Virus record (IMG/VR): IMGVR_UViG_3300042544_003310
Span: 1-64,000 of that record
Length of the DNA: 64,000 bases
Strand: one strand, 5' to 3'
Source of the DNA: a virus
Positions within the stretch are counted from its first letter, which is position 1; every line of letters begins with the position of its first letter. Shown one piece after another: positions 22,218 through 46,578 of this stretch. The translations under genes were made by a program, and so were the position numbers. The notes beneath the pieces were generated by a model. That model saw nothing but the letters and a program-made list of their open reading frames with translations. It made no database searches and was not told where the DNA came from.

Positions 22218-22239
22218 ATCTTTCACCAGGACAGCACAT

Positions 22240-26166: not shown

Positions 26167-28179
26167 GTGACTCAAATTCGTAAAATTTGGACCAGCAAGT
26201 TCACAAATGATATAAATGAGTATGTTGGTCGCGATGGGGAGATATTCTACGCAAGCGGGGAAGTTGAGTTACGTTTTTCTGACGGCGTAACTCCTGGTGG
26301 GTTACCATTTACCCCTGGCGGTGGAGGGGGTACTGGCACAACTGGCGCACAAGGACCCACTGGGCCAACAGGGGCAAGAGGCATTAGTGGTTATTCTGGG
26401 GTAAGCACCCTTGGCTCAACTGGACCAACTGGGCCCAACAGTGCTAGTGGTTATTCTGGGATATCAGGTTACTCAGGCGAGTCTGGAACAAGCGGCTACT
26501 CTGGCAGCGGAGTATCAGGCTACTCTGGTCAAGGTGGTTATTCAGGAACTTCAGGAAAATCTGGAGAATCTGGGTATTCTGGTGCCAGTGGGTATTCTGG
26601 TGCCAGTGGGTATTCTGGTGCCAGTGGGTATTCAAGTGAGTCTGGCCGGTCAGGTTACTCTGGTGAAAGTGGTTATTCTGGCAGTGGAGTATCAGGCTAC
26701 TCTGGAGAGAGTGGGTACTCTGGAGAGAGTGGGTACTCTGGAGAGAGTGGGTACTCTGGAGAGAGTGGTTATTCAGGTTATTCAGGTTACTCTGGTTATT
26801 CAGGTTACTCTGGTTATTCAGGTTATTCTGGAGAGAGTGGTTATTCAGGTTATTCTGGAGAGAGTGGTTATTCTGGGATATCAGGTGAGTCAGGCTATTC
26901 TGGAGAGTCAGGTGTCTCTGGATATTCTGCCTATTCAGGATACTCTGGAGAGAGTGGTTATTCAGGGGCATCAGGTGAGTCTGGCTATTCAGGAGAGAGC
27001 GGATATTCTGGAGGCAGCGGAACTAGTGGAACTAGTGGTGTAAGTGGATGGAGCGGCACAAGTGGAACTAGTGGATGGAGCGGCACAAGTGGAACTAGTG
27101 GATGGAGCGGCACAAGTGGAACCAGTGGATGGAGCGGCACAAGTGGAACTAGTGGAACAAGTGGCACAAGCGGCTGGAGTGGCACAAGTGGAACTAGTGG
27201 ATGGAGCGGAACAAGCGGCTTTAGTGGTGTCAGCGGAACTAGTGGGTTCAGCGGAACTAGCGGAGCAAGCGGCTTTAGTGGTGTCAGCGGAGCAAGCGGC
27301 TTTAGTGGTGTCAGCGGATTCAGTGGAGCAACTGGCTTAATAGGACCTACTGGTAGTGGCGCAACTGGTGCAACTGGCACCCCAGGTGTAACAGGTGTAA
27401 CAGGACCAACAGGTCCTGTTGGTCCTGCGTCTACATTAGCAGCTAGTTCTTACATTTTAACTGCTATCTTAACAAGTGATCAAACAGTTGCTAGCGCAAG
27501 TACGTTAGTTTTACCCTTAGCTGATTATTATGATCCACAAAACTGGTGGAACGCCAGCACATATACATTCAAACCAACTGTTGCAGGTTATTATAATTTA
27601 AGTTTCGGTGTTTGGGTCAGTGCAGCGTCTGTGGCAACTAATCAATATAACGGCCAGATACTTAAAAACTCTGGAACTATATTAATTGCCCAAGTTCAAA
27701 CTGTAACGTCTACGGGAATTTCACTTGGTGGCAGCAAAGTTGTTTACTTCAATGGATCTACTGACTCTGCTCAAGTTACTGCCTTTAACGGTACCGGAAG
27801 TAATGTTACAGTGCAATATGGCACTGCTGACGGTCCAGGAACTTGGCTTTCAGCACATTTAATTGCATATGGCGCTGATGGAGTAACAGGACCTACAGGC
27901 GCTAGCGGAACTAGTGGCGTAAGTGGATGGAGTGGCACAAGTGGCTGGAGTGGCACCTCTGGGTTCAGTGGATTCAGTGGCACAAGTGGATTCAGTGGCA
28001 CAAGTGGATTCAGTGGAACAAGCGGCTTTAGTGGTGTCAGCGGAACTAGTGGCACAAGCGGCTTCAGCGGAGCAAGCGGCTGTAGTGGTGTCAGCGGCTT
28101 TAGCGGAACTAGTGGATTCAGTGGCGGAGCAGGTGTTACTACAGGCAAAGCTATTGCGATGGCAATTGTTTTTGGATAA
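26167..28179 (+). CDS. Modular fibre protein: attachment head, Ser-Gly repeats, C1q-like domain
   Basis: A 670-residue fibre, with GTG as start. Residues 1-45 (IRKIWTSKFTNDIN, GEIFYASGEVELRFSDG) form an N-terminal domain found on many phage fibres and tropism determinants. Residues ~50-415 are low-complexity with a Gly every third residue: first Gly-Tyr-Ser (SGYSGESGYSG), then Gly-Trp-Ser/Gly-Thr-Ser (SGWSGTSGTSG), then a few Gly-Pro-Thr. Residues ~420-565 are a compact beta domain (AGYYNLSFGVWVS, GSKVVYFNGSTDSAQVTAFN, WLSAHLIAYG) with the features of a C1q/TNF-like jelly roll. A second Ser-Gly block follows to residue ~655. Sugar or receptor binding by the C1q-like head is inferred from the family. 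Confidence 0.85.
   Translation: MTQIRKIWTSKFTNDINEYVGRDGEIFYASGEVELRFSDGVTPGGLPFTPGGGGGTGTTGAQGPTGPTGARGISGYSGVSTLGSTGPTGPNSASGYSGISGYSGESGTSGYSGSGVSGYSGQGGYSGTSGKSGESGYSGASGYSGASGYSGASGYSSESGRSGYSGESGYSGSGVSGYSGESGYSGESGYSGESGYSGESGYSGYSGYSGYSGYSGYSGYSGESGYSGYSGESGYSGISGESGYSGESGVSGYSAYSGYSGESGYSGASGESGYSGESGYSGGSGTSGTSGVSGWSGTSGTSGWSGTSGTSGWSGTSGTSGWSGTSGTSGTSGTSGWSGTSGTSGWSGTSGFSGVSGTSGFSGTSGASGFSGVSGASGFSGVSGFSGATGLIGPTGSGATGATGTPGVTGVTGPTGPVGPASTLAASSYILTAILTSDQTVASASTLVLPLADYYDPQNWWNASTYTFKPTVAGYYNLSFGVWVSAASVATNQYNGQILKNSGTILIAQVQTVTSTGISLGGSKVVYFNGSTDSAQVTAFNGTGSNVTVQYGTADGPGTWLSAHLIAYGADGVTGPTGASGTSGVSGWSGTSGWSGTSGFSGFSGTSGFSGTSGFSGTSGFSGVSGTSGTSGFSGASGCSGVSGFSGTSGFSGGAGVTTGKAIAMAIVFG
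26380..27340 (+). repeat. Coding repeat (GYSG / GWSG units)
   Basis: Tandem 9- to 27-base units encoding Gly-Tyr-Ser-Gly and then Gly-Trp-Ser-Gly-Thr-Ser-Gly repeats. Several 18- to 39-base units are exact copies, for instance at 26580-26630 and 26700-26765. The minus strand reads as long open frames here, but only as a mirror of the repeat. Confidence 0.85.
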
Positions 28180-31338: not shown

Positions 31339-31387
31339 TTTCAATCTCTAAATTGTAGTGCTATCAAAAAGTTTGTATAATTTTGTT

Positions 31388-31786
31388 GTGACTCTACAAT
31401 TCAAATACTCTATTATCATACCAACCTACAACCACTGCAATGACTTGTTAGAACCTTGCACTACAAGCCTTTGCTCTCATAACAAAATGACTGACGTTGA
31501 ATTGATAGTCAGCGCCAATGGTTGCACAGACAACAAATGTGACTATCTACAAGATCTACAACAGCAATTTGTCAGTGTTGGCATGGCTGATCACTGTCAA
31601 ATTGTATGGAGTGATCAACCCTTGGGATAAAGTGGTGCCAACAATCTAGCTATCAAGCTAGCCAAAGGTCAACGCATAATTTTGCTCAACAATGATGTTG
31701 TGTTTCTGCCTCAAGAGAGAAATTTTTGAATTTGAGCTCTCAATCAACCATTTGAAATCAACCCCCGAGCAGGAATAAGCTGTGTA
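31388..31786 (+). pseudogene. GT2 glycosyltransferase remnant with three in-frame stops
   Basis: Read in one frame, the DNA encodes KYSIIIPTYNHCNDLLEPC, VELIVSANGCTDN, SGANNLAIKLAKG, IILLNNDVVFLPQE and INPRAGISCV: in order, the start, the first Asp/Asn motif, the SGANN loop and the LNND donor site of a GT2 glycosyltransferase. The frame is broken by TAA at 31628 and TGA at 31727 and 31733, without frameshifts. Neighbouring genes end normally at TAA and TGA, so a recoded genetic code is unlikely. Both TGA could be one-base changes from Trp. The 3' end runs directly into fibre sequence. Confidence 0.8.
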
Positions 31787-32332
31787 TTCAAAAGCTGGAG
31801 CGGAACAAGTGGATGGAGCGGATTTAGCGGTGCGGGCACAAGTGGATTTTCTGGCACTAGTGGATGGAGCGGAACAGCCGGCAGCTCAACCTCAATTACT
31901 GCTACAAATACCACAACAAATTCAACATTTTATCCGGTTTTTGTGGACACTGCTGGCTCTAGCACTACTCCTAGGATACGCAGCACTGCAACAGCATTCA
32001 CCTATAATCCTGGCACTGGTGAAGTGGCTGCTGTTGACTTCAACAGCATCAGTGATGCTGCGTTCAAAACAAACATCTCAACAATTACCGACAGTTGGGC
32101 TATTCTCAAGGAACTCAATCCCGTTAGTTTTGACTGGAAGCATGCCAGCAAACACAGTTTTGGTTTATTGGCTCAAGAAGTAGAGCAAGTTATACCATCT
32201 CTTGTGAGTACAACCGCGTCAGGGAAAACTGTGGCATATATTCAGTTGATACCGCTGTTGTTGAAGGCATTGCAAGAGCAGGCCGAAAGTATTGAAGTAT
32301 TGAAAAAACACTTGGGACTAAATCAAAGTTAA
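31787..32332 (+). pseudogene. Fibre C-terminal fragment with S74 intramolecular chaperone domain
   Basis: In the same frame as the glycosyltransferase remnant, the sequence changes to SWSGTSGWSGFSG repeats, a short linker, and then a peptidase S74-type intramolecular chaperone (SISDAAFKTNIST...ILKELNPVSFDWK, GLLAQEVEQVIP, YIQLIPLLLKALQEQ) to the stop at 32332. S74 domains fold trimeric fibre tips and then cut themselves off. There is no normal start: the only internal candidate, a GTG at 31943, has no ribosome site. It is probably a displaced fibre tip, retained as a recombination donor, or a product of a fusion/deletion. Confidence 0.7.
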
Positions 32333-32391: not shown

Positions 32392-32649
32392 ATGGCCATA
32401 AAAATATCAGGCGTTACAGTCATCGCCGATAACCAAAATTTGACTATTACTGGGTATGCCAATTTCAGCGGCACATCTGCACTAAAATTGCCTGTGGGCA
32501 CAGATGGTGAAAGACCAACAGCAGCAACAGGACAAATCCGTTACAATACTACGCAAGCCAGTTTTGAAGGCTACGACGGCACAGTTTGGGGCAGTTTTGG
32601 TGGCCAAGACAACACTGCTCGAACACTAGCTTTGTTGGCACTGACTTAA
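32392..32649 (+). CDS. Small fibre-head protein
   Basis: An 85-residue protein with good AAAAGGAGC upstream. The second half (LPVGTDGERPTAATGQIRYNT, FEGYDGTVWGSFGG) is a widespread phage structural module, and a related element (RVPVG..AQRP...TGMIRFNT) occurs near the N-terminus of the 2,497-residue protein. It lacks the usual long fibre behind it, so it may be a stand-alone connector for the RCC1 proteins whose first gene starts four bases downstream. Confidence 0.75.
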   Translation: MAIKISGVTVIADNQNLTITGYANFSGTSALKLPVGTDGERPTAATGQIRYNTTQASFEGYDGTVWGSFGGQDNTARTLALLALT

Positions 32650-32653
32650 TCAC

Positions 32654-34003
32654 ATGTCTGTGGCTGCTGGCAAACTCATCACACAAGCCAACGCATGCAT
32701 TGTCTTGGCCAATCAAGATGTTCTGCAAACTGCTCAGTTGGCAGGTATTCAAGCGGCTTTGAATGGGATCTATTGTGTAGCAAATTGTGCAGCATTGCCA
32801 ACAGCATGTGACAATACAGGCAGGTTTATTTGGATAACGGACATTGGCGACTATCGCTACAGTGATGGCACCCAATGGACCAATGACTTCAATACAAATT
32901 GGACAGGCGCATGTGTGTTTGGGTGGGGTTGGAACCTCTGTGGAGGTTTGGGCAATAATACAACAACTTCCCAGAGTTCACCTGTTCGAGAAATAAGCTC
33001 AAGCTGCAATTGGGTTACTGTCACTAGCAATACAACATCAGCAGGAATAAAATCAGACCTTTCACTATGGACTTGGGGTTACAACAATTGTGGTGCACTG
33101 GGCAATAATGCAACAGCTAACCAAAGTAGTCCAGTTCGTGAAATAAGTAGTTCTTCAACCTGGACAAGTGTAGGGTCATTTGCGTTCCATCTTTTGGCTT
33201 TAAAATGTGATAGCACACTGTGGGCATGGGGCGACAACTTTTGCGGTAATTTGGGCGATGGCACCAAAACAACCCGCAGTTCTCCAATCCGCGAGGTATC
33301 ATCAAGTACAAATTGGTGTTCAATCAGCAGTGGAGGGCTGCGACACTCTGCTGCTGTCAAGTCTGATGGCAGTCTGTGGACCTGGGGAGTCAACACATGT
33401 GGAGTACTGGGAACCAACAACACAACTAACTTCAGTTCACCAGTGCGAGAAATAACAAGCGGAACCTCCTGGTGCAGAATACAAAACGGTTACAACCTAG
33501 CAGTTGCGTTGAAAAAAGACAATACACTTTGGAGCTGGGGCTCAGGTGGATATGGCGTTCTCGGTAACAACTCTACCTCAAATGCCAGCAGCCCAGTTCG
33601 AGAAGTTTCCAGCTCTACAAATTGGTGCACATTTGGGCCTGGCAAGTATCATTCAAATGCTATAAAAACCGATGGCACTCTGTGGGCATGGGGTTTAAAT
33701 ACATGTGGAGAGCTGGGAAATAATACTGCAACCAGCCGGAGCAGTCCTATACAAGAAATTTCATCATCAACAACTTGGTGTCAAGTATCTGGTGGATGCG
33801 CGCATACCGCGGCGTTAAAAACAGATGGCACATTGTGGACCTGGGGAAATGCATCATGTGGCGCGTTGGGGAACAACACAGTTACATCAGTTTCCAGTCC
33901 TGTGAGAGAGATAACATCAGCCACGTCGTGGAGTTGTGTAACTAGCAGTACAAGGCAAACAATGGCCATTCAAGGTAAAATTTCAGGATTTGTAGCACTA
34001 TGA
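32654..34003 (+). CDS. RCC1-type seven-bladed beta-propeller, paralogue 1
   Basis: 449 residues. Residues 1-90 are an N-terminal adaptor (helical start, then VANCAALPT...GRFIWITDIGDYRYSDGTQW). Seven RCC1 repeats follow, each about 50 residues, with the core W-x-W-G-x-N-x-C-G-x-L-G-N-N and SSPVREI. Seven is the number in human RCC1 and closes one propeller. This copy is the least similar to the others (WAWGDN, WTWGVN). Eukaryotic RCC1-like domains bind proteins or chromatin; a phage role is unknown. Late promoter and neighbours suggest a surface or receptor-binding protein. Its stop overlaps the next ATG by four bases. Confidence 0.88.
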   Translation: MSVAAGKLITQANACIVLANQDVLQTAQLAGIQAALNGIYCVANCAALPTACDNTGRFIWITDIGDYRYSDGTQWTNDFNTNWTGACVFGWGWNLCGGLGNNTTTSQSSPVREISSSCNWVTVTSNTTSAGIKSDLSLWTWGYNNCGALGNNATANQSSPVREISSSSTWTSVGSFAFHLLALKCDSTLWAWGDNFCGNLGDGTKTTRSSPIREVSSSTNWCSISSGGLRHSAAVKSDGSLWTWGVNTCGVLGTNNTTNFSSPVREITSGTSWCRIQNGYNLAVALKKDNTLWSWGSGGYGVLGNNSTSNASSPVREVSSSTNWCTFGPGKYHSNAIKTDGTLWAWGLNTCGELGNNTATSRSSPIQEISSSTTWCQVSGGCAHTAALKTDGTLWTWGNASCGALGNNTVTSVSSPVREITSATSWSCVTSSTRQTMAIQGKISGFVAL

Positions 34004-35319
34004 ACTTAAATCAAATTGAATTTGCCCTTAGCCAAAAAATCGCAGCAGGCAACGACAATCTAGATTTGCTCACATATACACGGGCTATTCAACAACTGAG
34101 AACAGGCGCTATGTTTGTTGTAGCCTGTTCTCAATTATTACCTACTGCATCAGCCAGCAATGGTAAATTGTATTTGGTTGAAGACGCTCAAAGAGTAGTT
34201 TTCAGTAATTCTGTATTTTGGATTCCTATTGTATCACAGTCTAACACAGGTTGGGCGTGGGGGTCAAACAGTTGTGGACAATTGGGCACAAGTAATACAA
34301 CCAATCAATCAAGTCCTGTCAGAGAGATTACAAGCTCCTGCAACTGGCTGCAACTCAGAGCTGGTTCGGTAAATTCAATGGGGTTAAAACAGGATAGTTC
34401 CTTATGGCTTTGGGGCAATAACGTATGTGGTCAGTTGGGAGACAACACTGTTACCAGTAAGTCAAGTCCTGTAAGAGAAATCACCAGCAGCACAACTTGG
34501 TGTCAAATAGGTACGTCTTTTTACACAATGTCTGGTGTTAAAAGTGATGGCAGTTTGTGGGCATGGGGAAAGAACACATATGGCCAAGTGGGTGATAACA
34601 CTATAGTTAACAAATCTAGCCCAGTGCGTGAAATCAGCAGCAGTGCCACTTGGTGCCAAACCTCACCTGGATATTCGCATACTGCTGCACTAAAAACAGA
34701 TGGAACCCTTTGGGGTTGGGGAAATAATGGGACTGGGCAACTGGGCACATGCAATCTGTCTAATAGGTCTAGTCCTGTGCGAGAAATTTCCAGTTCAACC
34801 AATTGGTGTCAAGTTTCTGCCGGCCTCTACGGTACCCTAGCACTCAAAACAAGTGGTACTTTATGGGGATGGGGGTCAAACGAGTGTGGCAAATTTGGCA
34901 ATAATAGCACTAGCAATGTATCAAGTCCCGTTCAAGAGATAAGTAGCTCCACCACTTGGTGTCAAACTTCCGCTGGGTTTGCTCACTCTATTGCCTTAAA
35001 AACAACTAACACACTATGGGCATGGGGTTGCAACGCTTGTGGTGCTTTAGGAGACAACTCTACTGTATCCAGGAGCTCACCAATTCAGGAAGCAACAAGT
35101 GCAACCAATTGGTGCCAAGTCACTGCCGGCTTTGGCAGAAGTGGCGCTTTAACAACCGCAAGCACTTTATGGATGTGGGGTAATAACAATTGTGGCCAAC
35201 TTGGTAACAACTCTACAATCAGAAGTTTATTGCCTATACGTGAAATATCCAGTTCAAGCTCCTGGAGTGAAGTTAGCATAGGACAGGGCCTGTTTACTGT
35301 AGCCCGGCAAACAATTTAA
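34000..35319 (+). CDS. RCC1-type seven-bladed beta-propeller, paralogue 2
   Basis: 439 residues. An N-terminal adaptor (LSQKIAAGNDNLDLLTYTRAIQQL, then GKLYLVEDAQRVVFSN) differs in sequence from paralogue 1 but has the same plan: helical segment, VV/VA...LPTA, then (Y/F)..D...Y/F. Seven RCC1 blades follow (WAWGSNSCGQLG, WLWGNNVCGQLG and five more) to the C-terminus. Overlaps the preceding stop (ATGA). The next gene is an unrelated DUF4376-type protein. Confidence 0.88.
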   Translation: MNLNQIEFALSQKIAAGNDNLDLLTYTRAIQQLRTGAMFVVACSQLLPTASASNGKLYLVEDAQRVVFSNSVFWIPIVSQSNTGWAWGSNSCGQLGTSNTTNQSSPVREITSSCNWLQLRAGSVNSMGLKQDSSLWLWGNNVCGQLGDNTVTSKSSPVREITSSTTWCQIGTSFYTMSGVKSDGSLWAWGKNTYGQVGDNTIVNKSSPVREISSSATWCQTSPGYSHTAALKTDGTLWGWGNNGTGQLGTCNLSNRSSPVREISSSTNWCQVSAGLYGTLALKTSGTLWGWGSNECGKFGNNSTSNVSSPVQEISSSTTWCQTSAGFAHSIALKTTNTLWAWGCNACGALGDNSTVSRSSPIQEATSATNWCQVTAGFGRSGALTTASTLWMWGNNNCGQLGNNSTIRSLLPIREISSSSSWSEVSIGQGLFTVARQTI

Positions 35320-35336
35320 GATAAAAGGAATAAAAT

Positions 35337-35987
35337 ATGTATGTGTTAGTACATAACGAAAGAGTGTTGGTAGGTCCAATGAGTTGGAATAGGCCAATGT
35401 TTGAAGGCGGTCTGGACCGCCTTAAGATTTCAGCATTGCTGCCGCGCAATGACCCTGAAACCGTTCCTATTGTGATAGACGATGCCACCTATTTGACCAC
35501 AGCACAGCTGGTGATACCCGATCATAACTCTCGAACACAAACCTATTATGGTCCGTTCTGGGATTTCACTAATCCTGCAATTGCCGTTGGTACATTTGAG
35601 ATCAAATACAAGCAAATTTGGGAGATACAAGCTCAGTTGCGAGACGAGGCACAAGCCAATCGCTACACTGCTGAAGTGGGTGGCACACACACTGTGATAC
35701 AAGGTAAAAAAGTTACTATTGACACTAGCAGAGAAGGTAGGAACATTTTTGTGCAAAAATACTCTCTTATGGCAACTGATGAAACAGTGAATTGGAAGTT
35801 TCCGGAAACTTGGCTCACTCTCACAAAAGATGAATTAGGCCAATGCGTCGCTGCTGGTGCAGCGCATATTCAAGCCACATTTGACTGGGAAAAACTCAAA
35901 GATGATGAAATCACTGCCTCAACCACTATAGAGGAGTTGGAAGTGTTAGTGGTAGGCAACGTGCCCAATCTAGTGAGTGGTGGTTAA
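35337..35987 (+). CDS. DUF4376-type tail fibre-associated protein
   Basis: 216 residues after an AAAAGGA site. Residues 1-105 are a beta-rich N-terminal part (YVLVHNERVLVGPM, TTAQLVIPDHNSRTQTYYG), and residues ~105-195 (RYTAEVGGTHTVIQGKKVTIDTSREGR, then WLTLTKDELGQCVAAGAAHIQA) match the DUF4376 module found in phage tail proteins, usually near fibres. It interrupts the RCC1 array between paralogues 2 and 3, with short spacings on both sides. A fibre-assembly or bridging role is inferred. Confidence 0.75.
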   Translation: MYVLVHNERVLVGPMSWNRPMFEGGLDRLKISALLPRNDPETVPIVIDDATYLTTAQLVIPDHNSRTQTYYGPFWDFTNPAIAVGTFEIKYKQIWEIQAQLRDEAQANRYTAEVGGTHTVIQGKKVTIDTSREGRNIFVQKYSLMATDETVNWKFPETWLTLTKDELGQCVAAGAAHIQATFDWEKLKDDEITASTTIEELEVLVVGNVPNLVSGG

Positions 35988-35998
35988 GGAAGCGCAAG

Positions 35999-37372
35999 AT
36001 GGCCAATAACCTCTGCTGTGCAACACTTCTCAACTCTGTGGTGAGCGAAATATGCTCAAGTGGCACACTCACATGCAGTATGGATGTGGTGTTAGCAGCA
36101 GCATCACAAGACGCTGTTGACAGTAATCGGAGTAGTTTCATCAGCATAGATACCTTATTTGGTTGCAGTTGTTCAACTGGGTTACCAAATGGGCATGTTG
36201 TTTTTTTGTGCGATGCACTTGTGCCCGTAGTGAGCCTCAATGGCTGTTGGATTGGTTTTGATGGCAGGAATTTCACTCCTACAGTGGGAGGAGCTCTTTG
36301 GAGTTGGGGCGGCAACAACAACGGTCGATTGGGAGACAACACTATTACCAATCGCTCAAGCCCAGTAAGAGAAATCACCAGCAGCACCACTTGGTGTCAA
36401 ACTTCAGCTGGCTTTTATCATACCAGTGCATTAAAAACAGATGGCACACTTTGGAGTTGGGGCAGAGGCAACTACGGTCGATTGGGAGACAACACTGCTA
36501 CAAGTAAGTCAAGTCCTGTAAGAGAAATCACCAGCAGCACCACTTGGTGTCAAACTACGTCTGATAACAGAAGTACACATGCAATAAAAACAGATGGTTC
36601 ACTTTGGAGTTGGGGCAGCAATGCCTCTGGTCAGTTGGGAGACAACACTATTACCAATCGCTCAAGCCCAGTAAGAGAAATCACCAGCAGCACCACTTGG
36701 TGTCAAACAGCATCCAGTAATTATACTGCCAGTGCAGTAAAAACAGATGGCACACTTTGGAGTTGGGGCTCCGGCGGCTATGGTCGATTGGGAGACAACA
36801 CTGCTACAAGTAAGTCAAGTCCTGTAAGAGAAATCACCAGCAGCACCACTTGGTGTCAAACTTCAGCTGGTGGTATAAGCACTAGTGCTATAAAAAAAGA
36901 CGGCACACTTTGGAGTTGGGGAGGAGGTTTGCAGTTGGGAGACAACACAACAACAAACCGGTCAAGTCCAGTGAGAGAAGCCAGCAGCAGCACTACTTGG
37001 TGTCAAACATCAGTTGGATATCGGCACGCGTCTGCAATAAAAACAGATGGCGCTCTTTGGAGTTGGGGCTCTAACGGGTGTGGTCAGTTGGGAGACAACA
37101 CAACAACTGGTCGCTCAAGTCCAGTGAGAGAAATCACCAGCAGCACCACTTGGTGTCAAACTTCGGCTGGTTGTGTCAATAACAGTGCATTAAAAACAGA
37201 TGGTACACTTTGGACTTGGGGAGGCAATTTGTGTGGTCAGTTGGGAGACAACACTATTACCAATCGATCAAGTCCAGTGAGAGAAATCACCAGCAGCACC
37301 ACTTGGTGTCAAACTTCGGCTGGTAAAGTGGATACTAGTGCTATTAAAACTATATTAGTTGTTCCGCAATAA
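35999..37372 (+). CDS. RCC1-type seven-bladed beta-propeller, paralogue 3
   Basis: 457 residues with a Cys-rich adaptor of ~95 residues (LCCATLLNSV, CSCSTGLPNG, VVFLCDALVPVVSLNGCWIGFDG) and seven RCC1 blades (WSWGGNNNGRLGDN, WSWGRGNYGRLGDN and five more). Four blades share nearly identical DNA, including the block TTGGGAGACAACACTATTAC, so recent duplication or gene conversion is clear. One blade, WSWGGGLQLGDN near 36912, lacks three residues of the core. Confidence 0.88.
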   Translation: MANNLCCATLLNSVVSEICSSGTLTCSMDVVLAAASQDAVDSNRSSFISIDTLFGCSCSTGLPNGHVVFLCDALVPVVSLNGCWIGFDGRNFTPTVGGALWSWGGNNNGRLGDNTITNRSSPVREITSSTTWCQTSAGFYHTSALKTDGTLWSWGRGNYGRLGDNTATSKSSPVREITSSTTWCQTTSDNRSTHAIKTDGSLWSWGSNASGQLGDNTITNRSSPVREITSSTTWCQTASSNYTASAVKTDGTLWSWGSGGYGRLGDNTATSKSSPVREITSSTTWCQTSAGGISTSAIKKDGTLWSWGGGLQLGDNTTTNRSSPVREASSSTTWCQTSVGYRHASAIKTDGALWSWGSNGCGQLGDNTTTGRSSPVREITSSTTWCQTSAGCVNNSALKTDGTLWTWGGNLCGQLGDNTITNRSSPVREITSSTTWCQTSAGKVDTSAIKTILVVPQ

Positions 37373-37373
37373 C

Positions 37374-38735
37374 ATGACCACATCAGCAAAAACACTACAA
37401 ACACAAATTACTTCACGTTTGGCAGCAGGTGGGCTTACTCCATTAAGCTGTTGTCAGTTGCAGGGTGCACAATGTATTCTCGACACTCAAGCAGTGGTTT
37501 CTTTTTCCAATCTCGCTGCTTTGCCCACTGCGACCTTGAATCAAGGAAGGATGGTGTATCTACAAGACACTTGCCAGTATCGCGTCAGTGATGGCATTTG
37601 TTGGACAACAGACTTTCGAAGCATCGTGCAGCGTGTTGAACCCAGCGTTTTTTCTTGGGGAGCCAATGGGTTTGGTCAGTTGGGAGACAACACTGTTACT
37701 TGTCGGTCAAGTCCGGTGAGAGAAATCAGCAACAGCGGCAATTGGTGTCAAACTTCGGCTGGTGGTGGTCACACCAGTGCAATAAAAACAGATGGCTCGC
37801 TTTGGAGTTGGGGCTATAACACGGGTGGTTCGTTAGGAGACAACACAACAACAAGTCGCTCAAGTCCCGTAAGAGAAATCAGCAGCAGCAGTAATTGGTG
37901 CCAAACTGCGGCTGGTAGTAATAGTCCCACTAGTGCAATAAAAACTGATGGCACACTTTGGGTGTGGGGACTCAATCTCTGTGGGCAGTTGGGCGATAAC
38001 ACAACAACAAGTCGCTCAAGTCCGGTAAGAGAAATCAGCAGCAGCAGCAATTGGTGCCAAATTGCCTTTGGTGCGAGCATAGCTAGTGCAGTTAAAACAG
38101 ATGGTTCACTATGGACTTGGGGATGTGGTATTTGGGGTCAGTTAGGAGACAACTCCACCAATACGCGGTCAAGTCCAGTGAGAGAAATCACCAGTTCCAC
38201 CAATTGGTGCCAAACTTCCCCTGGAAGTCAAGTATCCAGTGCAGTGAAAACAGACTCCACATTGTGGGTTTGGGGACGCAATTTCTGCGGTACATTGGGA
38301 GACGGAACCTCAACCAATAGATCAAGTCCAGTGAGAGAAGCCCTCTCTAGTACTTCTTGGTGTCAAACTGCCTCAGGTTCCAATGCCGGCACCGCAGTAA
38401 AAACAGATGGCACACTTTGGACCTGGGGGTACGGCAGTTGTGGTGTGTTGGGAAACAACACCACCGCATGTACTGGAGTACCAGGGCGAGAAATCACCAG
38501 CAGCAATAATTGGTGTCGAACCTCAACTTCCAGAAATCAGACAGTCAGTGCATTGAAAACCGATGGTTCACTTTGGAATTGGGGCCGGAACCAGTATGGT
38601 CAGTTGGGAGACAACACAACAACTGGTCGCTCAAGTCCAGTAAGAGAAATCAGCAGTTTTACTACTTGGTTTCAAACTTCGGCATCTGCCCATATTAGTG
38701 CCTTAAAAATCCTAACCTGCAAAGGATTCCTTTGA
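37374..38735 (+). CDS. RCC1-type seven-bladed beta-propeller, paralogue 4
   Basis: 453 residues from the ATG at 37374, one base after the previous stop. Adaptor of ~85 residues (LQTQITSRLAAGGLTPLSCCQLQGAQ, LAALPTATLNQGRMVYLQD, YRVSDGICW) followed by seven RCC1 blades (FSWGANGFGQLGDN to WNWGRNQYGQLGDN). The adaptor has the clearest match to the N-terminal parts of other phage tail proteins (LPTA...G...Y..D...Y..SDG..W). Its TGA overlaps the next ATG by one base (TGATG). Confidence 0.88.
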   Translation: MTTSAKTLQTQITSRLAAGGLTPLSCCQLQGAQCILDTQAVVSFSNLAALPTATLNQGRMVYLQDTCQYRVSDGICWTTDFRSIVQRVEPSVFSWGANGFGQLGDNTVTCRSSPVREISNSGNWCQTSAGGGHTSAIKTDGSLWSWGYNTGGSLGDNTTTSRSSPVREISSSSNWCQTAAGSNSPTSAIKTDGTLWVWGLNLCGQLGDNTTTSRSSPVREISSSSNWCQIAFGASIASAVKTDGSLWTWGCGIWGQLGDNSTNTRSSPVREITSSTNWCQTSPGSQVSSAVKTDSTLWVWGRNFCGTLGDGTSTNRSSPVREALSSTSWCQTASGSNAGTAVKTDGTLWTWGYGSCGVLGNNTTACTGVPGREITSSNNWCRTSTSRNQTVSALKTDGSLWNWGRNQYGQLGDNTTTGRSSPVREISSFTTWFQTSASAHISALKILTCKGFL

Positions 38736-40075
38736 TGTCTACCATCAATGTAGCTAATCTAGTGTTCACAATGCAGCAAAAAATATCCAGCACTACTAAT
38801 GAGCAGGATTTGTTTTACTACAGCAAGGTATTGCAGCAGTTGAGAAGCGGCAAGGTGTATGTGGTGAACGCAGTGACTGATTTACCAACAGCCGCCGCAA
38901 ATGTGGGTGAATTGTATTATGTTGTGTTGAATACCTCACTGTATGTGGCCACAGTTACGGGATGGGGTGTTATAGGTACTACTCCCCTAAACCAAATTTG
39001 GAGTTGGGGCTTTAACGGGTGTGGTCGGTTAGGAGACAACACTGTCACTAGTCGCTCAAGTCCAGTGAGAGAAATCACCAGTTCCACCACTTGGTGTCAA
39101 ACTTCAGCCGCCGCTGCCAACGGTGGTAGGACTAGTGCAATAAAAACAGATAGCACACTGTGGACTTGGGGCTACAATGTCTCTGGTCAGTTGGGAGATA
39201 ACACTGTTACAAGTCGCTCAAGTCCTGTAAGGGAAATCACAAGCTCAACCACTTGGTGTCAAACTTCAGCTGGTAATGCCCACACAAGCGCATTGAAAAC
39301 AGATAGCACACTTTGGAGTTGGGGAAATGCATCCTGTGGTACGCTGGGAAACAACACTGTCACTAGTCGCTCAAGCCCAGTGAGAGAAATCACCAGCTCA
39401 ACTACTTGGTGTCAAACTTCGTCAGGCGGGTTTAACAGCGGCAGCCATACCAGTGCATTAAAAACAGATGGCACACTTTGGACTTGGGGCTGGAACGGTT
39501 GGGGTCAGTTGGGAGACAACACTGTTACGGCTAAGTCAAGTCCAGTGAGAGAAAGTAGCAGTTCAACCACTTGGTGTCAAACTTCAGCAGGCCCTACGAA
39601 TACTGCTGCAATAAAAACAAATGGCACACTTTGGACTTGGGGAGAAAACGGGTCGGGCCAGCTGGGAAACAACACCATCACTAATAGTTCAAATCCAAAC
39701 ATAGAAATTACCAACAGCACCAATTGGTGTCGAACTTCAGCTGGTATCCATACCGCTGCAATAAAAACAGATGGCTCCCTGTGGACTTGGGGATACAATG
39801 GCTCTGGTCAGTTGGGAGACACCACTGTTACCAATCGCTCAAGTCCTGTAAGGGAAATCACCAGTTCCACCACTTGGTGTCAAACTTCTGTCGGGTGGAT
39901 ACATACCAGTGCATTAAAAATATATGGCACACTTTGGACTTGGGGCGGCAATGGCTCTGGTCAGTTGGGAGACACCACTGTTACCAATCGCTCAAGTCCT
40001 GTAAGGGAAATCACCAGTTCCACCACTTGGCGTCAAACATCAGCTGGTGGTTTTCACACCAGTGCCTTGAAGTAA
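38735..40075 (+). CDS. RCC1-type seven-bladed beta-propeller, paralogue 5
   Basis: 446 residues. The adaptor (INVANLVFTMQQKISSTTNEQD, VLQQLRSGKVYVVNAVTDLPTAAANVGELYYV) is related to that of paralogue 2. Seven blades (WSWGFNGCGRLGDN to WTWGGNGSGQLGDT) follow. The last two blades are almost identical to each other in DNA. The protein ends HTSALK at the close of the last blade, without a tail. Confidence 0.88.
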   Translation: MSTINVANLVFTMQQKISSTTNEQDLFYYSKVLQQLRSGKVYVVNAVTDLPTAAANVGELYYVVLNTSLYVATVTGWGVIGTTPLNQIWSWGFNGCGRLGDNTVTSRSSPVREITSSTTWCQTSAAAANGGRTSAIKTDSTLWTWGYNVSGQLGDNTVTSRSSPVREITSSTTWCQTSAGNAHTSALKTDSTLWSWGNASCGTLGNNTVTSRSSPVREITSSTTWCQTSSGGFNSGSHTSALKTDGTLWTWGWNGWGQLGDNTVTAKSSPVRESSSSTTWCQTSAGPTNTAAIKTNGTLWTWGENGSGQLGNNTITNSSNPNIEITNSTNWCRTSAGIHTAAIKTDGSLWTWGYNGSGQLGDTTVTNRSSPVREITSSTTWCQTSVGWIHTSALKIYGTLWTWGGNGSGQLGDTTVTNRSSPVREITSSTTWRQTSAGGFHTSALK

Positions 40076-40088
40076 ATGGAGACAGAAC

Positions 40089-41438
40089 ATGCCAACACCC
40101 TCTGAAATCCAAACTAGTATTGACTCATTAATAACTGCTTGCGACAGTGTTTGTTTTCCTTTGTTAGCAGCCCAAACCAGTGCTGCTGGAGTTGGCATTA
40201 GTTTTGTTGTTAACACAGTATCAGACTTACCTGACCTAGCTACAAAGTGCATAGGTTTTGGTCAAACAGTTTTTGTCAAAAGTATTTGTGTACCTGTAAT
40301 ATCCACTTGTACTTCATGGGTGGGATTGGATGGTAGGGTTTTACGTCGAGATTGGCCTCTTAGACAGATGTGGACTTGGGGTCGTAATATATGCGGTCCG
40401 TTAGGAGACAACACTGTTACAAGTCGCTCAAGTCCAGTGAGAGAAATCACCAGTTCTGTCACTTGGTGTCAAACTTCGGCAGGCAGCGCCTTCACTAGTG
40501 CAATAAAAACAGATAGCACACTGTGGACTTGGGGATACAATGTCCAGGGTCAGTTGGGAGTCAACACTGTTACAAGTCGCTCAAGTCCTGTAAGGGAAAT
40601 CACCAGTTCAACTACTTGGTGTCAAACTTCAGCTGGTAATTCTCACAACAGTGCATTAAAAACAGATGGTACACTTTGGACTTGGGGATATAACGGGTGT
40701 GGCAGATTGGGAGATAACACTGTTACAAGTCGCTCAAGTCCAGTGAGAGAAATCACCAGTTCAACCACTTGGTGTCAAACATCAAGTGGTAGTTTTCACA
40801 CCAGTGCATTAAAAACAGATGGTACACTTTGGAGTTGGGGAAATAACTATTGCGGTATGTTAGGAGACACCACTGTTACCAATCGCTCAAGTCCTGTAAG
40901 GGAAATCACCAGTTCCACCACTTGGCGTCAAACATCAGCTGGTAAAGGTATTACCATCAGTGCAGTAAAGACAGATGGCACACTTTGGAGTTGGGGGTGT
41001 AATAGGTGTGGGCAGTTGGGAGATAACACTGTTACCAATCGCTCAAGTCCGGTGAGAGAAATAAGCAGCAGCACCACTTGGTGTCAAACTTCGGCAAGCG
41101 CCTGGACTAGTGCAATAAAAACAGATGGCACACTTTGGAGTTGGGGATTTAACCAGTGTGGGCAGTTAGGAATCAACAACACAGGTCTACTATCAAGTCC
41201 AGGGAGAGAAATCACCAATTCCACCACTTGGTGTCAAACTTCAGCTGGTAGTAATCACAACACTGCAATAAAGACAGATGGCACACTTTGGACTTGGGGA
41301 TTTAACGATTGCGGTGTGTTAGGAGATAACACTGTTACCAATCGCTCAAGTCCGGTGAGAGAAATAAGCAGCAGCACCGCGTGGTGTCAAACTTCGGCCG
41401 GTTCCATGACGGCTGCAATTCTCCAGTGCTATAACTAG
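40089..41438 (+). CDS. RCC1-type seven-bladed beta-propeller, paralogue 6
   Basis: 449 residues. A Cys-rich adaptor (SIDSLITACDSVCFPLLAAQTSAAG, VVNTVSDLPDLATKC, VISTCTSWVGLDGR) resembles that of paralogue 3. Seven blades (WTWGRNICGPLGDN to WTWGFNDCGVLGDN) follow, several sharing long identical DNA with paralogue 5. It is the last of the array; the next gene (DUF5672) starts 32 bases on. Confidence 0.88.
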   Translation: MPTPSEIQTSIDSLITACDSVCFPLLAAQTSAAGVGISFVVNTVSDLPDLATKCIGFGQTVFVKSICVPVISTCTSWVGLDGRVLRRDWPLRQMWTWGRNICGPLGDNTVTSRSSPVREITSSVTWCQTSAGSAFTSAIKTDSTLWTWGYNVQGQLGVNTVTSRSSPVREITSSTTWCQTSAGNSHNSALKTDGTLWTWGYNGCGRLGDNTVTSRSSPVREITSSTTWCQTSSGSFHTSALKTDGTLWSWGNNYCGMLGDTTVTNRSSPVREITSSTTWRQTSAGKGITISAVKTDGTLWSWGCNRCGQLGDNTVTNRSSPVREISSSTTWCQTSASAWTSAIKTDGTLWSWGFNQCGQLGINNTGLLSSPGREITNSTTWCQTSAGSNHNTAIKTDGTLWTWGFNDCGVLGDNTVTNRSSPVREISSSTAWCQTSAGSMTAAILQCYN

Positions 41439-41470: not shown

Positions 41471-42301
41471 ATGACCCTTACTCTATTCACCATCACAAAC
41501 ATCCAGCACGAACTCACTAGTTTCTCACTTCAAAAAACCCTTGCCTCTACACCGATCACCACCACAATTGTGGTGTCAGATCAACCATTAACTCTTGCAC
41601 AACCCCATACACAATATCCAATTCCAGAAAACTTTGGCATGCTGGAATACTGTGATTTCTGCCTCAAGAGCATGCACAGCTACATCAACACTGATTTTGT
41701 GTTGATAGCACACTATGATGGCATAGCCACAAACCCCAAAGCCTGGACTGATGAATATTTTGAATATGATTACGTGGGCAGCCTCTCGCATCCTGAATTT
41801 CCGCCAATGAAAGGCAGCCTGCAAGCCAGTGGCCACTACCAAGAATTTAAAAACGCAGATTGGTTCACCTGTGGCGGAGGATTAAGCTTGCGAAGCCGTC
41901 GCCTCCTCAAAATCCTAGCTGAAGATCCCCAGATCAAAACCCGGAACTACACCCCCAATCACAACACGCCCTTCATCAGTGAGGATGCTGTGATTACACT
42001 GCTCAACCAGAATTACCTTGAAACTGCCTACAACATTCGATTCGCTCCAGCACATATCAGCTTAAAATTCTGTGCAGAAGTGCTCACTGGTTACACCTCA
42101 GCATTGGGATTTCATGGTTGGTACAACGCACCTTTGTATCTCAGCGAACAAGAATGCCTCTTCTACTTTGAACATTTGGAAAAAATTGACTACAACAAAA
42201 ACACCATGCAAGGGCAATTATTGAAATTTCACACCATGATGAAGGGATATTTACATTTACGTGATTATTTGATTTCTCAGGACAAATGGCTATTATACTA
42301 A
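41471..42301 (+). CDS. DUF5672-family predicted glycosyltransferase
   Basis: 276 residues. The segment YCDFCLKSMHSYINTDFVLIAHYDGI, then DEYFEYDYVG and WFTCGGGLSLRSRRLL, is typical of the DUF5672 family of presumed sugar transferases; D of HYDG is a candidate metal ligand, and SEDAVIT further on is the typical acidic site. It opens the sugar-modification cluster on the plus strand. No membrane segments. Acceptor unknown. Confidence 0.8.
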   Translation: MTLTLFTITNIQHELTSFSLQKTLASTPITTTIVVSDQPLTLAQPHTQYPIPENFGMLEYCDFCLKSMHSYINTDFVLIAHYDGIATNPKAWTDEYFEYDYVGSLSHPEFPPMKGSLQASGHYQEFKNADWFTCGGGLSLRSRRLLKILAEDPQIKTRNYTPNHNTPFISEDAVITLLNQNYLETAYNIRFAPAHISLKFCAEVLTGYTSALGFHGWYNAPLYLSEQECLFYFEHLEKIDYNKNTMQGQLLKFHTMMKGYLHLRDYLISQDKWLLY

Positions 42302-42304
42302 GTT

Positions 42305-43909
42305 ATGAACATATTGGGAATGAATTTTTCTCACGACGGTGCTGTGGCAGTTGTGAAAAATGGCAGATTAACAGCAGCTTTGGGAACAGAACGTGTTACT
42401 AGAGAAAAAAAGGCTTTTGGTGTAACCAACAAAACAATTGAGGCTATACTTCAGGAAGCTTCACTTAAACCTGAGGACATCAGTTGCATAGCATTGGCTG
42501 ACTACAAGGCCAACCACAGCAACGGTGTCTTGGCACTATATGACAGTGATGGCAACACTGTGGAGAGAACTGCCTACTCACTCTACAACAACGACGTGCG
42601 AACGCTTACAGGTGTTTTCCTCGGCAGCCACAAAATACCAGTGTATGTGCTGCCACATCATTTGGCGCATGCCAGCAGTGCCTACTACACTAGCAATTTT
42701 GATAAGGCCATTTGTTTCAGCTTAGACAGCAGTTTTGGCGAACTTGGCGACAACAACATGGTGTTTTTTGGTGAAGGCACTAAGCTTCAAGCTCAAATGT
42801 GCCCAACACTCATCTCAGGTATTGGGTATGCCATCTTCACCGAGCTGTTGGGTTTCTCCCCAGCCTACAGCAAGGCAGGCACCACCATGGGACTCAGCAG
42901 TTATGGTAAATCACTCACTGGCCCTATTTTTGATGAGATTTTGAAAAAACAATGGTTCAGTGTTCAAGAACACGCTGAGTTGGAATACAGGAAGTTCTGG
43001 AGCAATGTGTGGGAAAAACTCATTGCCAAGCACCCACATGAGCTCACACACAAGGAAAGCAGTGATTTGGCTGCTACTATTCAAGAGCTACTGGAGAAGA
43101 GTGTTCTGGAAACACTAGCTACACTGCACCAAATTTATCCGCAACGACAGTTATGCCTCAGTGGTGGCAGCATGCTGAACTGCATCTTGAACAGCCGGAT
43201 AGCTGAAAGCAAGCTTTGGGAGGGCATTCATCACTTTCCTGCATGTGGCGATGACGGCAATGCGGTGGGCGCCGCTCTTTGGGTAGCGCACCATTTGTTT
43301 GACTTACCAAGGCAAAATTATCAACCGCAGAATTTATGTTATTTGGGACCTTCTCAAAACACTACCTCCATTGTGGACTACACTAGAGTTTGTGAGCTAC
43401 TGGCTCAAGGAGCTATAGTGGCCTGGCACTGGGGCAGAAGCGAATATGGGCCTCGAGCACTGGGCCACAGAAGTCTTTTGGCTGATGCACAAAGCTATCA
43501 CATGCGTGAGAAAATAAATTTCGCAGTGAAAAACAGAGAATGGTTTCGACCTATTGCGCCTGTGGTGTTGCAGGAACACGCCCACGATTGGTTCTCCTTG
43601 CCAATACCCTCGAGCCCCTACATGCTTTACACTGCACAAGTGCTGAAGCCGCAACTGATTCCAGCAGTGTGTCATGTGGACAACAGTGCACGCCCGCAAA
43701 CTGTTACAGCTGAACAAAATCCCCAGTTGCACCAACTGCTCACTTGTTACCATCAATTGACAGGCGTTCCTGTGCTGTGCAACACCAGCTTGAATGGCGC
43801 TGGAGAGCCCATTATGGAAACTCCTGAACAGAGTTTGAGATTTTTTGAAACCAATGACAGCGTTGCCGCACTGATGTTGAATGGACAGCTTTTGGAGAAA
43901 TCACAATGA
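42305..43909 (+). CDS. NodU/CmcH-family O-carbamoyltransferase
   Basis: 534 residues, standard for the family. The N-terminal ASKHA-type domain begins ILGMNFSHDGAVAVV and carries PHHLAHASSAYYTS, whose His118 and His122 match the metal-binding His pair. GRSEYGPRALGHRSLLADA and WFRPIAPVVL are the hallmarks of the C-terminal domain, which makes the carbamoyl-adenylate intermediate. The enzymes add a carbamoyl group to a sugar or antibiotic hydroxyl. It starts four bases after the DUF5672 gene and ends by overlapping the methyltransferase ATG. A sugar acceptor in this cluster is inferred. Confidence 0.92.
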   Translation: MNILGMNFSHDGAVAVVKNGRLTAALGTERVTREKKAFGVTNKTIEAILQEASLKPEDISCIALADYKANHSNGVLALYDSDGNTVERTAYSLYNNDVRTLTGVFLGSHKIPVYVLPHHLAHASSAYYTSNFDKAICFSLDSSFGELGDNNMVFFGEGTKLQAQMCPTLISGIGYAIFTELLGFSPAYSKAGTTMGLSSYGKSLTGPIFDEILKKQWFSVQEHAELEYRKFWSNVWEKLIAKHPHELTHKESSDLAATIQELLEKSVLETLATLHQIYPQRQLCLSGGSMLNCILNSRIAESKLWEGIHHFPACGDDGNAVGAALWVAHHLFDLPRQNYQPQNLCYLGPSQNTTSIVDYTRVCELLAQGAIVAWHWGRSEYGPRALGHRSLLADAQSYHMREKINFAVKNREWFRPIAPVVLQEHAHDWFSLPIPSSPYMLYTAQVLKPQLIPAVCHVDNSARPQTVTAEQNPQLHQLLTCYHQLTGVPVLCNTSLNGAGEPIMETPEQSLRFFETNDSVAALMLNGQLLEKSQ

Positions 43910-44448
43910 AAATCTATATTGGCGCAGGTGAAGACAGGATTGATGGATATGTGCACTGTGACTACGATCCCAACTGCAATCCTGATTTTTGTTTTGACCT
44001 TGAAAAAGACATTTTCCCATTTCCCACCAACAGTGTAGATGTGTTGAGAGCCACTCATGTGTTAGAGCACTTGGGCGAGGGGTATTTTCACTGTCTGCAG
44101 GAAATTTATCGAGTGTGCAAACCTGGGGCAAGAGTACATATTCATGTACCTCATCACCGCAGTGATGACTTCTTCAGCGACCCCACGCACAAACGCCCAG
44201 TCACTGTAGATGGCTTGCGCTTGTTTGGCTGCAAATACAACCAATTGGCACGCAAGCAAGGTGCACATGCCAGTAGGCTTGCCGAACGCTACAATGTGGA
44301 TTTTGAGGTGGTGGACTACAGCTTGCGACCCATGGAAAAATACAAAGATCAATTTGTGGGGCAACCTAAAGAACAGGTAGAGCAGTATCTTGAACAGCAC
44401 TGTAACATAATCGACGAAGTCTACATTCAGTTAGTGGTAGTAAAGTAA
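43906..44448 (+). CDS. Class I SAM-dependent methyltransferase
   Basis: 180 residues. IYIGAGEDRIDGYVHCDYD is the strand-loop AdoMet-binding start, with DLEKDIFPFPTNSVDVLRATHVLEHL as the family's motif II to III region, and EIYRVCKPGARVHIHVPHH as post-motif. It resembles small methyltransferases of surface-polysaccharide clusters. The ATG overlaps the carbamoyltransferase TGA (ATGA). Substrate is probably a sugar or peptide of the same product. Confidence 0.85.
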   Translation: MKIYIGAGEDRIDGYVHCDYDPNCNPDFCFDLEKDIFPFPTNSVDVLRATHVLEHLGEGYFHCLQEIYRVCKPGARVHIHVPHHRSDDFFSDPTHKRPVTVDGLRLFGCKYNQLARKQGAHASRLAERYNVDFEVVDYSLRPMEKYKDQFVGQPKEQVEQYLEQHCNIIDEVYIQLVVVK

Positions 44449-44451
44449 CCC

Positions 44452-46576: not shown

Positions 46577-46578
46577 GC

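Follow-up and report, generated by a model that had tools for sequence, protein, structure and literature searches.

Six phage genes encode proteins that each carry one seven-bladed RCC1 propeller behind an N-terminal adaptor of one of three homologous types, A, B and C, with two proteins of each type. These proteins are probably host-binding parts of the tail or virion surface, with three dedicated sockets and with heads homogenised by recombination or duplication. The genes lie in a 64,000-nucleotide stretch (the window), part of a 223-kb record of a phage known from metagenomic contigs, in the following layout:

26167..28179, + strand: collagen-like tail fibre protein, upstream context (profile matches)
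31943..32332, + strand: Peptidase_S74 chaperone end belonging to a tail-fibre-like protein, immediately upstream (profile matches)
32392..32649, + strand: 85-aa ORF, partial phage virion-protein domain, first ORF past TATAAATA (phrog_6005)
32654..34003, + strand: R1, adaptor type A (residues 1-88) and seven-bladed RCC1 propeller (repeats, profile matches, adaptor tree)
34000..35319, + strand: R2, adaptor type B (1-84) and seven-bladed RCC1 propeller (same evidence as R1)
35337..35987, + strand: DUF4376 companion gene of a tail-fibre family, between R2 and R3 (profile matches)
35999..37372, + strand: R3, adaptor type C (1-100) and seven-bladed RCC1 propeller (same evidence as R1)
37374..38735, + strand: R4, adaptor type A' and seven-bladed RCC1 propeller (same evidence as R1)
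38735..40075, + strand: R5, adaptor type B' and seven-bladed RCC1 propeller (same evidence as R1)
40089..41438, + strand: R6, adaptor type C' (1-94) and seven-bladed RCC1 propeller, the member modelled with AlphaFold2 (repeats, profiles, tree, model)

The start of R2 overlaps the stop of R1, and ATG codons at 37374 and 38735 are the likelier starts of R4 and R5, whose ORFs are open from 37359 and 38732, respectively. An earlier note on this DNA had described six tandem genes; they do form a series in one region, but not all are adjacent, the DUF4376 gene separating R2 from R3. DUF4376 genes also sit between RCC1 genes of related arrays, including gp336 of Synechococcus phage S-SRM01. The array region recurs in IMG/VR contigs from other metagenome records and is thus not a one-off assembly artefact. 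Five of the six loci of a first comparison were identical to the window across 21,347 bases and the sixth (L017) showed four differences, all outside the array; in a second comparison of seven loci, on contigs partly shared with the first, six had no difference and L105 had one, again outside the array. Hence, no micro-variation between samples was seen inside the array among the window-phage loci compared. Two other loci, L114 and L115, differ from each other at two positions, both in one adaptor.

Each of R1-R6 contains exactly seven W-x-W-G repeats, spaced 49-55 residues apart. The Pfam RCC1 profile PF00415 gave 42 matches (E <= 1e-3; two of them below the family cut-off) in the whole 223-kb record, all within 32915-41420, and 42 in each of two further contigs of this phage (328 and 310 kb), compared to none in any of 14 control genomes, confirming the 42 blades counted in the earlier note. 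PF25390 matched above cut-off in all six proteins. An AlphaFold2 model of R6, the one of the six modelled, was built from 98 sequences and indicated a closed propeller, as had been proposed, at approximately residues 89-449 (pLDDT 92.1, pTM 0.84); a run on the six window proteins alone was poor (pLDDT 47.9) and was discarded. The best solved-structure match of the R6 model was the RCC1-like domain 2 of HERC2 (Z 53.7, rmsd 1.6, 357 aligned residues), with scores of Z 48.7-53.7 across HERC2, UVR8 and RCC1 and Z 33 for BLIP-II. Eukaryotic RCC1 is a Ran exchange factor that binds chromatin (nucleosome/DNA); its likeness to the R6 model (1a12, Z 48.7) is one of fold alone. Each of the six genes thus encodes one seven-bladed RCC1 propeller, the fold being modelled for R6, and an adaptor of about 90 residues precedes it in all six, also as noted earlier; that of R6 is predicted to form two helices and a small beta domain. 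The fetched loci contributed 165 complete, non-redundant ORFs; with the ends of two adaptors placed by hand, 141 of these had seven blades, five had 14, and one each 21 and 28, the remainder having 5 (one ORF), 6 (12), 8 (two), 12 (one) or 27 (one).

What the earlier note had missed is that the adaptors fall into three types, two of each. Comparison by hhalign (A-B 98%, A-C 92%, B-C 93%) indicates that the types are homologous. When 39 adaptors of six phages were placed in a tree, with the adaptor/propeller split taken from the alignment, A (support 0.955) and C (0.998) formed groups and B was the remainder. Between phages, adaptors of the same type were more similar (identity 0.31) than those of other types (0.19), with an additional small phage effect (reached by 5 of 2000 permutations). 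The types were first spotted by eye, so this agreement is partly built in; independent tests of the typing are gene order, numbers and the propellers. A, B and C were equally numerous in all six long-adaptor arrays compared (2:2:2 or 3:3:3), while gene order varied (ABCABC, ABBCAC, ABABCCABC). Block duplication alone could suffice for equal numbers. Trees and counts exclude L110, which is truncated, and L112, whose reading frames are broken, and the L089 array ends 350 bases from its contig end. Searched with one sequence each against 50,697 phage records, types A and C had no match at E <= 0.01 and the only match of type B was weak, to a Lactobacillus phage. A search of genome_contigs for type A was negative, scans with the C' and B alignments recovered only contigs already in the set, and no convincing adaptor match emerged from PHROG or, for types A and C, from the PDB. 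A search of one open-access library did not find the three-type rule in print.

On average, the propellers follow the phage and not the adaptor. Between phages, propeller identity was 0.426 within an adaptor type and 0.427 across types (a type effect reached by 1693 of 2000 permutations, i.e. no type signal), whereas propellers of the same phage were 0.53 identical, a phage effect that none of 2000 permutations reached. At the DNA level, each of the ten pairs formed by R2-R6 has exact matches exceeding those in any of 20 synonymous shuffles, for example 81 bp between R5 and R6 (control maximum 32), and R3 and R5 contain internal exact repeats of 81 and 82 bp (control maxima 23 and 21). The adaptors share exact DNA of at most 11 bp, and R1 carries no footprint exceeding the shuffle control. 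The heads do not evolve strictly in concert: among the 39 propellers of the long-adaptor set, just 18 had their nearest neighbour in their own phage, L089 heads are scattered in the tree, and L114 and L116 heads are mixed. The most variable blade columns map to two loops predicted on one face of the R6 model. Positive selection at these columns was not shown: pN/pS stayed below 1 (0.8), and synonymous changes were almost saturated.

A second family, with short adaptors of about 33-45 aa (types a, b and c), is exemplified by S-SRM01 (Kyanoviridae), in which a single set of three RCC1 genes (gp335, gp337 and gp344) starts directly after baseplate and long-tail-fibre genes and a propeller is up to 50% identical to R6. 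The window array shares with this triplet the equal three types (here 2:2:2) and the DUF4376 gene, but its adaptors are not of the short a/b/c kind. Indeed, none of nine hhalign comparisons between short and long adaptors detected similarity (about 1.1% or less). All 22 short-adaptor loci holding all three sockets, 11 of which had been used to define the types, have their first a, b and c in this order, and 20 of them are balanced, the exceptions being the abcc arrangements of L033 and L061. Ten more of the 32 loci in this census, where loci with the same RCC1 protein entered as one (as also in the array count below), show only part of a, b and c; eight of these, by eye, are situated at the end of a contig or include an open ORF, while L052 does not and neither does L057, a lone a gene with about 10 kb on either side. 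Single-gene arrays account for seven of 32 arrays with clear flanks, a set that excludes the window, L111, L114, L116 and L089 (too short on one side). The heads behave as in the long family: across 64 propellers from 20 loci, mean identity between phages was 0.590 for the same type and 0.589 for other types, and 0.66 for different types within one phage, with a mean of 0.57 for the four same-phage, same-type pairs; the nearest propeller came from the same phage in 29 of 64. The examined text of PMC8557907 on S-SRM01 does not mention RCC1, and in that of PMC10218006, PMC5723332 and PMC8066274 'RCC1' stands for unrelated names only.

The phage itself is T4-like, as claimed before, since the 328-kb contig carrying the same region encodes a complete gp23, whose nearest relatives are those of the jumbo phages Phosso (75%), PA5oct (68%) and GAP32 (65%). 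No RCC1 match was found in Phosso or Atu_ph07, relatives by neighbouring genes or capsid, and psbA, a photosystem gene indicative of a cyanobacterial host, was absent from three of three records, all of the window phage. Of the perfect late promoter previously placed ahead of the array, the word TATAAATA is indeed present at 32351, but it precedes the 85-aa ORF, which matches phrog_6005 (virion structural protein) over 46 aa (E 1.8e-15). Three such words occur in the window, against a shuffle mean of 1.20, and 15 of 100 shuffles reach three; with the count within chance, the promoter was rejected as evidence. Nor did promoter- and terminator-like sites between 30400 and 41700 exceed shuffles.

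A tail or surface role, in line with the earlier note, is most likely given the module context, RCC1 domains inside fibre proteins and mass spectrometry of related virion proteins. RCC1 lies within collagen and S74 proteins in L040 and L056 and within an S74 protein in L052, and PollyC gp12 combines it with a T7-fibre N-domain (a weak match below cut-off, E 6.7e-5); in these four, the propeller is fused into a long fibre, whereas in the window it sits on a separate adaptor. We infer that the six proteins are located in the virion, bind receptors and co-assemble as A+B+C. As outer virion parts of the tail fibre, baseplate or whisker region, they would bind the host surface through the C-terminal propeller, with each adaptor docking its protein at one of three sites, A, B or C, and the array would comprise two copies of the A+B+C set. 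The sockets would be fixed and old, while recombination or duplication between genes and blades would keep the heads alike within a genome, such that the set would shift its binding specificity together.

How the three chains meet is less certain. Gene numbers and adaptor homology suggest that A, B and C could assemble as a heterotrimer, to which we give somewhat less than an even chance; that these heterotrimers are obligate and bear three propellers, two in the window phage and three in that of L089, with recombination-homogenised heads on fixed sockets, is put forward slightly more tentatively still. Alternatively, A, B and C might dock apart as three separate homo-oligomeric fibres that never meet, with gene conversion alone keeping the heads alike. 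Phage fibres are usually homotrimers, and three sockets in equal numbers are explained equally well this way. Hairs of phAPEC6 at multiple sites of the tail and the capsid (PMC7247149, partial text) would likewise suit separate fibres, a reading we consider rather unlikely because the adaptors are homologous and of similar length, as expected of pseudo-symmetric partners. Moreover, a heterotrimer has a precedent in the virophage DSLV2, for which the consulted part of PMC12724248 reports three consecutive tail genes whose products form a 1:1:1 heterotrimer binding Synechococcus, albeit in another kind of virus and with a gp37-tip-like fold instead of a propeller.

The earlier note had offered either a bank of alternative receptor-binding heads or a hetero-hexameric structure. 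A hetero-oligomer fits better, but as two A+B+C sets and not as six unrelated parts. A head bank on one common site would account for tandem paralogues and predicts one adaptor kind whose heads diverge, the pattern of 121Q and Munch. Like the window phage, the Asteriusvirus-type jumbo phages (121Q, PBECO4, phAPEC6) and Salmonella phage Munch are T4-related with tandem RCC1-like genes, theirs of ~370-400 aa. From the 13 proteins annotated in 121Q and the 13 of the Munch stretch, 8 and 12, respectively, were examined; all 20 start with M-[LI]-P-F-x-R-..-Y-G-N, as does gp1 of GAP32, where the RCC1-like gene is single-copy; the 20 have strongly diverged heads, with no long adaptor and no A/B/C types seen. 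R1-R6, by reading, lack this motif. Here, by contrast, three adaptor types are retained over deep divergence, heads from one phage resemble each other more, on average, than heads from different phages, the array is free of differences among the window-phage loci compared, and PF00078, the reverse transcriptase expected of a DGR, had no match in seven of seven possibly incomplete records (three of the window phage, four of relatives). A head bank is therefore improbable.

Equally doubtful is a role as internal DNA-condensing proteins. Such arrays, considered unusual in the earlier note, were already known in 121Q, PBECO4, phAPEC6 and W70, and at least 589 RCC1-related stretches occur in viral contigs; the module is common and already named, but the name is unsupported by gene context. 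Annotation as 'regulator of chromosome condensation' or 'DNA condensation protein', carried over from eukaryotic RCC1, is echoed for phAPEC6 and by the authors on Escherichia phage W70, who suspect a role in encapsulating DNA (PMC11370258, in the part available). As described there, W70, like the window phage, has multiple RCC1 proteins, three and consecutively numbered (W70_237-239, phrog_4219), all in the virion with spectral counts of 233, 196 and 141. The GAP32 and phAPEC6 proteins were likewise detected in virions by mass spectrometry, which fits a place inside or outside. However, the best fold matches, HERC2 and UVR8, are protein-binding propellers, collagen and S74 fibre proteins can contain RCC1 domains, the genes lie near fibre genes with a DUF4376 companion, and DNA binding needs no three distinct sockets. 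That the proteins act outside the virion as host-modifying or decoy proteins, such as soluble inhibitors like the RCC1-like propeller BLIP-II, is very improbable, since related phage RCC1 proteins occur in virions and the context is a tail module.

Viral contigs often encode RCC1-like proteins, and a sizeable group of annotations would have to be corrected if the role of these proteins lies at the tail or virion surface. Conserved sockets with concerted heads make a testable rule, by which a phage could keep several different fibre parts functional as the heads change jointly, and may point to fibre heads of three different chains, for which the partial text of PMC12724248 on DSLV2 provides the one experimental viral precedent seen. 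If true, this would be a phage host-recognition system whose head set evolves in concert, and its three-socket rule would have emerged at least twice, in adaptor families that show no recognisable similarity to each other.

All six genes that the earlier note had described as carrying seven RCC1 repeats each (R1–R6) indeed do so, and the 42 matches to Pfam RCC1 in the 223-kb record lie without exception within the array they form. Each protein combines an N-terminal adaptor, or socket, with a C-terminal propeller, or head, made of seven repeats (blades):

32654-41438, + strand: R1–R6 array; per gene, an adaptor of 84-100 residues followed by seven RCC1 repeats
35337-35987, between the second and third RCC1 genes: DUF4376 gene of the tail-fibre family

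For several of R1–R6, stop and start overlap or abut. Contigs of 328 kb and 310 kb carrying the same region again hold 42 Pfam RCC1 matches apiece, and the region is the same in contigs from several other metagenome records. Given this recurrence, an assembly artefact is unlikely; no head switching was seen among these contigs.

The window phage is a T4-related jumbo phage. A contig of its population encodes the full T4-type capsid protein gp23, closest to those of Sinorhizobium phage Phosso (75%), PA5oct-like phages (68%) and GAP32 (65%); the full protein was seen only in this longer contig, and the record of the window itself holds two gp23-like partial matches (79523-79837 and 143804-143983). 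A ClpA-like ATPase (window 22177-24546) shares 46.5% identity with that of Phosso. Searches for psbA in three records of the window phage, and for RCC1 matches in Phosso and Atu_ph07, returned none.

Collagen-like and S74-bearing fibre proteins are encoded ahead of the array. Baseplate wedge and long-tail-fibre genes in S-SRM01 are followed by its first RCC1 gene. Among the related loci that were fetched (L-numbers), RCC1 propellers lie inside collagen-like S74 proteins in L040 (28 blades) and L056 (7), an L052 RCC1 protein (7 blades) carries S74 only, and in PollyC gp12 RCC1 is attached to a T7 fibre N-domain, whose match falls below cut-off (E 6.7e-5). On account of the fibre neighbours, the S-SRM01 context and these fusions, R1–R6 most likely sit on the outside of the virion, on the tail. 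Upstream, window 31358-32332 holds by eye an apparent N-terminal glycosyltransferase-2-like fragment and then, in another frame, an S74 fibre end, resembling a decayed or rearranged fibre/transferase gene. Genes 3′ of the array (41471-48407) encode DUF5672, a carbamoyltransferase, two methyltransferases, a sulfotransferase and a glycosyltransferase, and in S-SRM01, too, sulfotransferase, glycosyltransferase and epimerase genes lie close to RCC1; those of the window possibly serve modification of surface sugars or fibres. A NUBPL/Mrp-like P-loop NTPase follows at 49317-50102 (E 4e-79). ORFs near RCC1 arrays in L107 (8196-9059) and L110 (7938-8774) start alike by eye, the start of the latter also resembling that of such an NTPase.

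The predicted structure of R6 (98 sequences in the alignment; pLDDT 92.1, pTM 0.84) matched HERC2 RLD2 (VIA-align Z 53.7), UVR8 (about 50), human RCC1 (48.7) and BLIP-II (33). Its two N-terminal helices score low (55-60), which would fit a need for partners. Over 1301 blade matches of other phages, variability is highest in six of the 51 blade columns (39, 40, 5, 8, 7 and 18), and in the window, counted on the 26 of 42 blades of exactly 51 residues, columns 40, 5, 39 and 7 varied most. All six lie in two blade loops (columns 5-18 and 38-40, with strands taken from the R6 model), which, judging from the topology of an antiparallel blade, should share one face. Diversifying selection at these columns is not shown by the pN/pS of 0.8, with synonymous change near saturation.

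When viral contigs were scanned with the six window proteins, at least 589 related stretches emerged, the best 80 of which were kept. The fetched loci gave 165 complete ORFs once redundancy was removed, and 141 of these have seven blades; the others had 14 (five ORFs), 21 (one), 28 (one), 5 (one), 6 (twelve), 8 (two), 12 (one) or 27 (one), the counts of 5, 6, 8, 12 and 27 perhaps partly reflecting missed blades. Where more than 2 kb on each side lacked RCC1 (32 loci), arrays comprised one (7 loci), two (1), three (19), four (3) or six genes (2). Several RCC1 genes also occur in named phages, among others S-SRM01, 121Q and Munch, and the cultured K-12 phage Sharanji (OR545507) shows 11 matching places. 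Published reports mention eleven RCC1-like proteins in phAPEC6, whose virion table has six 'DNA condensation proteins' with 2-5 unique peptides each (PMC7247149), multiple RCC1-like copies in 121Q and PBECO4 with one in the GAP32 virion (PMC5259590), and three RCC1 proteins in the W70 virion (PMC11370258). Tandem phage RCC1 arrays are an already known kind; what is new is the combination of three sockets with heads that change in concert. No description of the three-type rule was found in the one open-access library searched.

Three adaptor types, A, B and C, were first suggested by reading N-termini. Scanning with type-A adaptors added arrays; scans with C′ and B returned only contigs already collected. 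Six long-adaptor arrays were thus compared, those of the window, L109, L111, L114, L116 and L089. In a tree of 39 adaptors, A (support 0.955) and C (0.998) separate, the remainder being B. Gene order is A B [DUF4376] C A B C in the window and L109, A B B [DUF4376] C A C in L111, L114 and L116, and A B [DUF4376] A B C C A B C in L089. All six arrays include the Pfam DUF4376 gene (for L089, from the contig that it shares with L107), and in all six A, B and C are equally numerous, for which the chance under random types is 0.12 with six genes and 0.085 with nine, values that cannot simply be multiplied across arrays because of their common ancestry. The three adaptors are homologous (hhalign 98, 92 and 93%), with no convincing match to known families. 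Subtypes A, A′ and C′ are common to several phages (supports 0.904, 0.915 and 0.821), and the doubling of the set is therefore old, at least for A and C; its age is less clear for B. Between phages, adaptors of the same type are 0.31 identical versus 0.19 for other types, and each of the 39 has its nearest neighbour within its own type, an agreement that is in part circular, adaptors having served to define the types; a small phage effect exists here too (reached by 5 of 2000 permutations). In L112 (8559-10908), long-adaptor RCC1 genes are split over several frames, pointing to a decaying array or sequencing errors.

The heads of the same 39 proteins follow the phage on average. The six window heads fall into a single clade (0.961) and those of L111 into another (0.962); L114 and L116 propellers are mixed inside one clade that also holds L111 (1.000); L109 propellers group together (0.756) and those of L089 are scattered. 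Between phages, propeller identity is 0.426 for the same adaptor type versus 0.427 for other types; within a phage it averages 0.53, an effect reached by none of 2000 permutations. For 18 of the 39 propellers the nearest one comes from the same phage, and for 10 it shares the adaptor type, so that likeness within a phage is a rule of averages. Exact shared DNA stretches likely reveal the cause in the window: all ten pairs among R2–R6 exceed the maximum of 20 synonymous shuffles (R5–R6, 81 bp versus 32), and R3, R5 and R6 contain internal repeats of 81, 82 and 57 bp (controls 23, 21 and 23). None of the five R1 pairs stands out, and the longest exact stretch common to window adaptors is 11 bp.

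A separate short-adaptor family (a, b, c; the S-SRM01 kind) repeats this pattern in the averages of its propellers: between phages, identity is 0.590 for the same versus 0.589 for other types (64 propellers, 20 loci), and within a phage 0.66 for different types and 0.57 for four same-type pairs, with 29 of the 64 having their nearest propeller in the same phage. Long adaptors show no similarity to short ones (none of nine hhalign comparisons above about 1.1%); the short types a, b and c are weakly alike (83, 36 and 52%). All 22 loci holding the three types, 11 of which had been used to define them, have the order a, b, c, and 20 are balanced, with an extra c in L033 and L061; L057 has a alone, and L040 carries one more RCC1 fibre gene without a/b/c assignment. 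L110 (3510-12138) has a short-adaptor set with DUF4376, and slightly further on in this contig a long-adaptor set begins. A third group (L048, L083, L091 and others) also has three genes that, by eye, each begin with a different N-terminus.

The earlier interpretation of the array, as a bank of alternative receptor-binding heads or a hetero-hexameric surface structure, is supported in part: a surface structure fits, and a bank of heads better describes 121Q and Munch, where, unlike in the window, one N-terminal motif recurs in 20 of 20 proteins examined and heads are strongly diverged. This motif, M-[LI]-P-F-x-R-..-Y-G-N, also opens GAP32 gp1 and is perhaps a common virion docking signal. Homologous and equally numerous adaptors make an A:B:C heterotrimer plausible, if tentative, and a virophage report offers a precedent (PMC12724248); three separate homo-oligomers of A, B and C are somewhat less likely. 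In our proposal, A, B and C would each dock at one of three different, conserved sites, every docked protein bearing one propeller, with two such sets in the window phage. Recombination would keep the heads alike, and host specificity would therefore change as a set.
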